Source: Favolaschia claudopus (taxonomy: Eukaryota; Basidiomycota; Agaricomycetes; Agaricales; Mycenaceae). Taken from it: DNA of 64,000 nt. A program made the translations under genes and the position numbers. Each line of letters opens with the position of its first letter. Position 1 is the first letter of the stretch. Below, one piece after another: positions 47,314 to 49,875 of the stretch. The notes under the pieces are model-generated. The model made no database searches. It saw only the letters and a program-made list of their open reading frames with translations, and was not told the origin of the DNA. The stretch is from NCBI GenBank assembly GCA_037176885.1, contig JAWWNJ010000080.1, positions 1 to 64,000 of the forward strand, read 5' to 3'.

Positions 47314-47692
47314 GCGTCAACACTTTCCGAGATCCCGAGTATGTTGTACTCGAGTACTTCAAACCTCAAGGCTGTTCACACATTGTATAACTGAAGTATA
47401 TATTACATCCTTGTGCTCAGAAGCCAAACTGCAGCTGATCTCTGGCAAACACCGGAGGTTTCCATCGCAAGTGCTCCGGTTTGATGTGCCTCTTGGACTT
47501 GTTCCGTAACTTTTCATAACGAGCCACCGCTGATTTGTTCAAGGCGATGATGGAGGAGCCTTTGTAGCTTTTGAAAAGACCCAATATGTCGCATCTAAGG
47601 TTTGTGGAGTCATTTTTGTCGGAATTGCTGAAAGAGCTCGAAAACGCACGTGGTGCTAACGTCCGCATGGGTTATGGATGTTCGTCGTGCTA

Positions 47693-47884
47693 TACAGTCG
47701 TCACTGTCATAACCCATACCTGTACTTCCCCATAACCCATAATCTTGGAGGCGAATTTTCCTCAGTTTACAGTGTAAAAGTGCCCAAATTACGTGATGTT
47801 TACCTGCGATAACCCATAAAACCCTCATAACCCATACTTTTTTTGCCCCACCGAGGGGTATGGGTTAAGGCAGTGACGACTGTA
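47693..47884. mobile_element. MITE in the last third of the HAT gene
   Basis: 188 bp with ends CAGTCGTCACTG / CAGTGACGACTG and TA on both sides (47693-47694, 47883-47884). TAACCCATA-type words recur inside. Removing it with one TA restores the frame ...DD-I-ARR... of the acetyltransferase. Confidence 0.92.
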
Positions 47885-48031
47885 TCATCAATGCTGATCT
47901 TGGCACCATCGTCCAGCGACATGAGCAGTTCCAAGATGGTGTCTGCCCAATACGAGCGATATCCCAATAATCCAAGATCAGAAAGTGGTTTCTCTGGGCT
48001 ACCCAGTTTACCCTCCTTCTTGCTGAGCTCA

Positions 48032-48465
48032 TAAGGTAGGGCTCATTCATAAGTAACCTATGTCATGTGATCAAATATCCCACTCCATTTTGGGCTGAGC
48101 TGCCGTTTCCCATTCCTTTTGCATTGTCTGTGACCACAAAGCCATAAGTAAATACGAAGATCTACTATAGTACTTTGTTAGTGAAATACTGCAACATATA
48201 TTAATATTTGAAGCTGAATTGGATTCATTGAAAGTGAAACAATGCTCCCGAACCAAAATTCTTTCAATAAATCATAGGCATCAACTATCGGGCAAAAAAC
48301 TATGCAGGTGTCCTTGAATAAGCTAAATGCAGTTATCTTCGTATCCAAACCCATGGGATTATGCCAGGATTGGGTCAAAAAGGGTTGAAAACAAGGAAAT
48401 CGCCCCAAAAGGGGCGTCACATTTGATCACATGACGTAGGTTCCTTATGAATGAGCCCTACCTTA
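48032..48465. mobile_element. MITE in the HAT catalytic domain (AGGTAGGGCTCA family)
   Basis: 430 bp (48034-48463) with about 44-bp inverted ends AGGTAGGGCTCATTCATAAG and beyond, and TA at 48032-48033 and 48464-48465. The termini match the Tc1-like elements at 16818-18765 and 16482. It lies in a TAT (Tyr) codon of the acetyltransferase. Non-coding, so it must have been mobilised by a transposase in trans. Confidence 0.95.
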
Positions 48466-49875
48466 GGAAAATTCGATCAGAAGCTTGCCATATCCACCAC
48501 GTTGGTACTGAGGAAGAGTAAGGATGCAGGCAACATTGTAGTTCACTGCAGATTCTTTCTCCTTCGAAAAATAACCGAGTATATGGCATCCGAAGGAGTC
48601 CCGCAGGCACTAGAAAAGATGATCAACTGGCCAAATATAGTCATGCAATACTGACCATAACATAGAACAGAAATGGTGTAACATCATAGTACAATGTTTT
48701 GCTGAGAAGAATGAGTAGAATGCTCGACAGCAATAGATCAACGCACTGGTCAAGGAAACATTTTGATAATAAACATAGATTTCTACACCAAGGCAGTTGG
48801 CGGCTCCCGTCAACCTCGAAGAACGAGATCTCCTCGTAGCGATAGATTTCGTTGCCCGGGGGGTGCAAAAGTGAACATTTTCGGCGGTGCCGGGAAAGCA
48901 TCATTACGGAAGGGAAGAATAACAGGCAGAATTCGCAGAGATACAGTATTGGGAGGTGAGCATACTCTATCGGGTAGGGCGAGAAATACCAAGTTTCAAT
49001 CTCGTACTTCCCAATCTGAAGACGGTTCAAGTTCTTGACGCGAGCAACTTCCGGTTTTGGAAACGTCATTGATCCCGAGGTTGGCAACTCCTTGAGTTCC
49101 TCAACTGTGAAAAAAAAAAAAAAGGAGAGTTAGATTCGCGTGCAGGAACTGCCAACAATAAAGTTGACCATCCACTTTGCCCTCCGTGTCGGGGTCCTCT
49201 GGGTCTTCTTCGTCGTGAGGTAGTTTCCGCTTCAGCGAATATGATGAAGAAGTGACTGAGTGCGATGCAGAGACGTCACTGAAGGACGAGGTGGGGGTAG
49301 GCGAGCCGAAAGCCGAGTTGTGGGTTGCTGTCAAGGCACGGGAGGGAAAGCGCGGAGCTTTTCCTACTGTGTCCGAGGGGTTGTGCTTGGCTGACGACAA
49401 GTCTGGGCTCGGCCACTGCAATTCGCGGGATAGAATCAAGCTGGAACCCGGAACCCACTGATCGAGACGTTTGTTGAAGGTGTCCCAATGGACAAAATAC
49501 TCCCATTTATCTGGGTGGGTGTCAGAGCCCGCGCCGATCGGTATATAAGAACCATGAGAGTTGGCGAGCGTTTCTCTGATAGACAAAATTTCCGCCAGCC
49601 GCTCTTCGCCCTCCCCTGGGCTTCGAACATACATTTTGCAGCCCACTCTCACATTCTGTATGGTATGCGTCGAAATCAAATAAATCACTGCCAAACGCAA
49701 CCTCACCTGCATTGCGTACTTGCCACCTAGCGTAATCAGATGGCTCTGACTGTTGCCCTCGGGAATGGACCTCATGGCGGTCTATGGCGGTCCAGTCAGA
49801 ACTGAGGGTCCCCGGTCCCCTGAGTGACGTGGTGATTCCACGTGACCCTTTTTGCTTACACCAACTAATCTAAAT

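Follow-up and report, generated by a model that had tools for sequence, protein, structure and literature searches.

A MITE-interrupted copy of a recently multiplied ESA1-type acetyltransferase paralogue in Favolaschia claudopus

An ESA1-type MYST acetyltransferase paralogue of the wood-rotting mushroom Favolaschia claudopus is interrupted in its fifth exon by two unrelated MITE-like elements, each flanked by TA and each missing from the sister copies of the gene. The gene lies within the window, a stretch of 64,000 nucleotides (C80:1-64000) of a genome searched here as 264,566,041 bases in 460 contigs. Very probably this reflects recent multi-kb copying of the paralogue followed by MITE inactivation of the window copy, which was tolerated through redundancy. 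An ESA1-derived MYST paralogue would have been copied recently in a several-kb segment to some eight or nine genomic locations; two non-autonomous cut-and-paste elements from two TA-targeting families would then have hit exon 5 of the window copy, and a third would have inserted into its 5' flank. Canonical ESA1 and full-frame copies of the paralogue persist, which would explain why the loss is tolerated.

Structure of the interrupted gene and its two elements

The gene has six exons, in agreement with the preliminary description, separated by five GT-AG introns of 45–64 nt, and its exon pieces match the annotated F. claudopus protein P0001. Tudor-knot, zf-MYST and MOZ_SAS domains all score above the Pfam cut-offs, although in separate pieces. 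The features are as follows.

47417..49775, minus strand: ESA1-type MYST acetyltransferase paralogue with six exons from ATG to stop, the fifth interrupted; Pfam domains in separate pieces
49707..49775, minus strand: exon 1, also present in all five sisters with a full frame
49169..49655, minus strand: exon 2 (Tudor-knot, linker), from gene model and Pfam
48747..49104, minus strand: exon 3 (zf-MYST, start of HAT domain), from gene model and Pfam
48656..48701, minus strand: exon 4, from gene model
47650..48609, minus strand: exon 5, whole, interrupted twice, from gene model
48464..48609, minus strand: exon 5, first piece plus one TA copy; TAA stop formed at the junction 48465-48463
48034..48463: element 2, MITE-like, 430 bp, TIRs of ~62 nt, TA at 48032-48033 and 48464-48465; from family and empty sister sites
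47885..48033, minus strand: exon 5, middle piece (147 bp plus TA), containing YELSK; from gene model, Pfam and sister comparison
47695..47882: element 1, MITE-like, 188 bp, TIRs of ~26 nt, TA at 47693-47694 and 47883-47884; from family and empty sister sites
47650..47694, minus strand: exon 5, last piece plus one TA copy, from gene model and sister comparison
47417..47594, minus strand: exon 6 with the natural stop codon, from gene model and sister comparison

The two elements are unrelated and have different terminal inverted repeats. Element 2, which precedes element 1 in gene sense, has inverted-repeat arms of 67 nt (85% complementary), 62 nt of which lie inside the element while the remainder consists of the TA and three flanking bases; the arms of element 1 are 29 nt long (93% complementary; 26 nt inside the element). 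The exon stretch between the two insertions is 147 bp plus one TA, the 149 bp given previously.

Both elements belong to multicopy families of near-uniform length with TIRs and a target duplication, and the fullest family matches stop precisely at the TAs. Of 343 element 1 candidates 40 were scored, and 39 of the 40 are other loci at 95–99% identity, typically spanning exactly 47693-47884; they include relatives on C218 and C239 situated upstream of the sister gene copies. For element 2 (40 of 51 candidates scored) at least 12 other loci cover at least 390 nt at 90–98% and the fullest matches span exactly 48032-48465, with shorter or more diverged pieces also present in the genome. The earlier proposal of two different MITEs, both at TA sites, is thus borne out by distinct TIRs and by two families with TA-to-TA edges. 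Tc1/mariner elements target TA and leave footprints of 2–3 nt at excision. The window elements are putatively non-autonomous and of Tc1/mariner type, a superfamily placement made by the TA target only, and like other TA-targeting MITEs they are short and have TIRs, a TA duplication and many similar copies.

Element 2 turns the codon that it splits into an in-frame TAA, so that translation is predicted to end after 368 residues, before the region of the catalytic Glu. An intron still lies downstream of this premature stop, and the mRNA would normally be exposed to nonsense-mediated decay. The Cys in VACILTLP and the Glu in SYELSK, which we take to be the catalytic residues, are both encoded in the window DNA but not in one open frame, because element 2 parts them and adds a stop; the two motifs share one open frame in all five full-frame sisters. 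When exon borders were compared across the paralogue copies, no frame damage was seen in the window copy beyond the two exon-5 insertions.

Sister copies and canonical ESA1

A PF01853 search of the genome contigs, in which 54 of 54 candidates were scored, gave 46 matches. These comprise canonical ESA1 on C77, C87 and C94, nine copies of the window paralogue (on C4, C14, C33, C53, C80, C123, C190, C218 and C239) and other MYST genes. With the exon borders of the window copy applied to all nine, a full 491-codon frame is present in five (C53, C123, C190, C218 and C239); in C14 the final 11 codons are missing, in C4 exon 1 finds no match, C33 is truncated and has lost the frame, and the ninth copy, on C80, is that of the window. 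C218 and C239 (loci L012 and L013) are 99.99–100% identical over about 28 kb and differ by an insertion of 1,682 bp close to the gene that is bordered by a repeated CAATAGCCACCAGTG stretch. They may be one locus assembled twice, in which case there are eight loci and four full-frame loci.

The site of element 2 is a single TA with no element in all eight other copies, and the same holds for element 1 in all seven copies that reach its site; both insertions are therefore private to the window copy. No excision footprints were seen at these two sites in the sister copies. As had been claimed from the window alone, removal of each element with one TA restores an uninterrupted sequence, and this single-TA form is the one seen in the sisters. 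No allelic counterpart with empty sites was found: two stretches of the outer flanks lead to different contigs, and nearer the gene only dispersed repeats are matched.

Copies differ from one another by 0–1.0% in exons and by 0–2 positions in up to 262 nt of intron. The nearest sister of the window copy is C218/C239. Relative to C218 the flanks have 5 differences in 2,666 nt (2/900, 3/1402 and 0/364), the exons 5 in 1,476 nt and the introns none in 261 nt, for a total of 10 in 4,403. Both insertions are very recent, as previously suggested, because the nearest copy differs by so few flanking bases, and this agrees with the empty sites in the sisters. Among eight copies (the out-of-frame L016 left out) 13 codons vary, with 10 amino-acid-changing and 4 silent changes; on this count of just 14 changes, variation is close to the 70% expected under neutrality.

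The canonical ESA1 loci on C77, C87 and C94 (L018, L017 and L019) are collinear over about 9 kb at 94.3–95.9% identity, which suggests three diverged haplotypes of one locus rather than two. On C77 the gene is annotated as a protein of 551 aa, and it is this annotation only that backs intactness. On C87 and C94 the whole canonical protein is covered in two tblastn pieces, the larger containing 4 and 3 stops, respectively (2 on C77); such stops are taken as probable introns. One TGA lies within a PF01853 piece on C87.

The window gene shares the Tudor-knot, zf-MYST and MOZ_SAS domains of ESA1/KAT5 in the same order, and yeast ESA1 provides its top solved-structure matches. Its identity to canonical F. 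claudopus ESA1 is about 70%; its linker is shorter, and it departs from about 117 other proteins at sites where these show little or no variation. In a tree of 30 proteins the paralogue sits beside F. claudopus ESA1 on a long branch with support of 88/88, below the star threshold of the tool. The window gene is not the orthologue, the canonical copies being those on C77, C87 and C94, and it falls in a separate paralogue clade. Between a paralogue copy (L009) and canonical ESA1 (L018) dN is 0.195 and dS is 1.74; omega is about 0.11, and the paralogue has therefore long been under constraint. It was therefore functional until recent times, and certain copies may still be of importance. The synonymous comparison proposed earlier is saturated against canonical ESA1 (dS about 1.7); the 0–1.0% exon divergence among paralogue copies is far below the 4–6% separating the canonical contigs.

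A chimeric or acquired paralogue was considered and rejected, both HAT segments being closest, outside the paralogues, to F. claudopus ESA1. The first half of the paralogue HAT domain has some states in common with yeast, and for the N-terminal segment F. claudopus ESA1 is only the sixth closest, by a margin of <1%. In a protein search for short fragments of the paralogue, none exceeded 76% identity among the best 120 of 173.

A second MYST sequence gives seven matches of near-equal score (two on C117, and one each on C204, C80:1153594, C180, C218:2099 and C27), each matched stretch containing a single TGA and a single TAG. It may represent another multiplied MYST gene, either broken or containing introns.

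These counts bear on the preliminary view that an essential Esa1 had been broken. Its provision that another copy exists holds, since the window gene is not the only one; the identification with Esa1 itself does not, the window gene being a diverged paralogue. There is no truncated essential protein to explain, because the window gene is not the essential ESA1, and redundancy removes the apparent paradox.

Further insertions and spread of the segment

Beyond what had been described before, the window copy has a third element upstream of its ATG and an insertion downstream of the gene, and the whole segment has spread recently.

49906..50085: element 3, a TA-flanked TIR element of 180 bp, 130 bp upstream of the ATG, member of a repeat family
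45945..46498: insertion of 554 bp on the downstream side of the gene, lacking in six of six sisters checked and not a TA-TIR element
43720..50381, minus strand: segment common to the window and the C53 copy, comprising the gene with an upstream flank of about 0.6 kb and a downstream flank of about 3.7 kb

Element 3 is missing from all five sisters that are readable at its site. Four have a clean single TA and L011 has TACAGTA (gene-sense position about 4022-4075), which looks like a Tc1/mariner excision footprint; of the remaining sisters, L013 carries a separate insertion of 1,682 bp at this place, the region is missing from L015, and the match to L016 starts downstream.

TA-flanked TIR loci of 80–900 bp number 10 in the 64 kb (21 raw matches merged by eye), and the same scan gave no matches in five of five Markov control sequences; the pattern is therefore not due to chance. 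A larger element occupies 16820-18763; it is flanked by TA, and its long inverted repeats belong, on comparison by eye, to the TIR family of element 2. It encloses a gene on the minus strand (17111 to about 17990) encoding protein P0121, for which a protein search returned five matches in total, namely itself, three Mycena proteins and one other. This element is interrupted at a TA by a further TIR element (18229-18745) and is a possible case of gene capture.

The ends of the copies are ragged: C33 has 1.4 kb in common with the C53 reference and C190, at the other extreme, about 13 kb. The common downstream part includes a high-copy repeat. C38 and C30 contain downstream parts of the unit and have no PF01853 match in the genome search. 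The segment was possibly spread by a mobile carrier. A giant TIR element was considered as the vehicle, since the C190 copy lies between 581-bp perfect inverted repeats about 15 kb apart. It was not accepted, because the 581-bp repeat also occurs at many other places (only some contigs among the matches listed carry the gene) and the copy boundaries differ. No transposase was recognised by eye among ORFs of at least 110 aa at six loci (L009, L011, L014, L020, L025 and L026).

A wider reading, to which we give only tentative credence, is that a mobile or composite repeat unit has carried the ESA1 paralogue as its cargo to about eight loci, with insertions destroying copies almost as fast as substitutions accumulate. 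The window copy has four private insertions (elements 1, 2 and 3 and the 554-bp insertion), as against ten differences in the 4,403 bases compared with its nearest copy.

Fate of the window copy

The most likely account of the window copy is the ordinary loss of a redundant gene copy through cut-and-paste MITE insertion. Other readings would have the gene still in use or the elements misplaced. It is improbable that the 368-residue product, with its Tudor-knot, zinc finger and half HAT domain, persists because it has a function in its own right, such as competing with ESA1 in the ESA1 complex. Its frame is clean as far as the stop and there are only four private codon changes, but all four alter the amino acid and none is silent, the premature stop in the predicted mRNA lies upstream of an intron, and element 3 sits just upstream of the ATG.

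It is very improbable that the elements behave as introners that are spliced out to leave a working protein. In element 1, splicing out the 100 nt from a GT at 47803 to an AG at 47704 would keep the frame and add 30 residues, and element 2 starts, in gene sense, with a donor-like AAG/GTAGGG. However, element 2 gives an in-frame TAA at its junction, and of the 613 GT-AG pairs (35–600 nt) in exon 5 plus element 2, 20 leave the frame open and none retains both LIEFS and YELSK; as a single intron, element 2 is thus spliced out whole and in frame by 0 of 613 pairs. An introner survey names Pezizomycotina and other ascomycetes as introner fungi, and 'Basidiomycota' and 'Mycena' are absent from its main text (PMC9860276).

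An assembly artefact, in which the elements were wrongly joined into the gene, is hard to credit: the genome is described as repeat-rich and was assembled with Falcon (PMC10905254), but both junctions have exact TA duplications, the fullest family copies have the same edges, and elements 1 and 2 are not identical to their best-matching copies (97–99%). Precise excision in some nuclei, leaving the gene working in part of the life cycle as with MITE-derived internal eliminated sequences of ciliates, many of which are reported as TA-bound and MITE-derived (PMC9942856), can practically be discounted, as the single-TA sites of the sisters need only mean that they were never hit, and the sole excision-like trace, at the element-3 site in L011, is imprecise.

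With inactivation of a redundant copy by MITE insertion as the preferred reading, element 1 may have come first and been tolerated for a while, because alone it could be partly spliced in frame.

The window copy constitutes a datable natural experiment, with one gene, eight close sisters as controls and two exon insertions younger than ~0.2% flank divergence, in which one can follow, almost one insertion at a time, how a duplicated chromatin gene is born and dies through MITEs. The case suggests that in F. claudopus TA elements have lately been active and a histone acetyltransferase paralogue has lately spread; effects on silencing could be checked. In a search of one literature library with a limited set of terms, neither this gene nor F. 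claudopus MITEs came up in a title or abstract; one listing contained a single F. claudopus paper, the genome note. The case is a vivid but ordinary one of a redundant gene being broken, and it is the recent multiplication of the paralogue that is worth following.

Inactivation of duplicate genes by transposon insertion is a known mechanism in which a redundant copy is lost and the others stay intact, and here too a redundant copy is broken and other copies are intact. The example is unusually clean: it differs from the usual duplicate inactivation in that a single copy has two exon insertions and one upstream insertion within ~0.2% flank divergence of its nearest sister.
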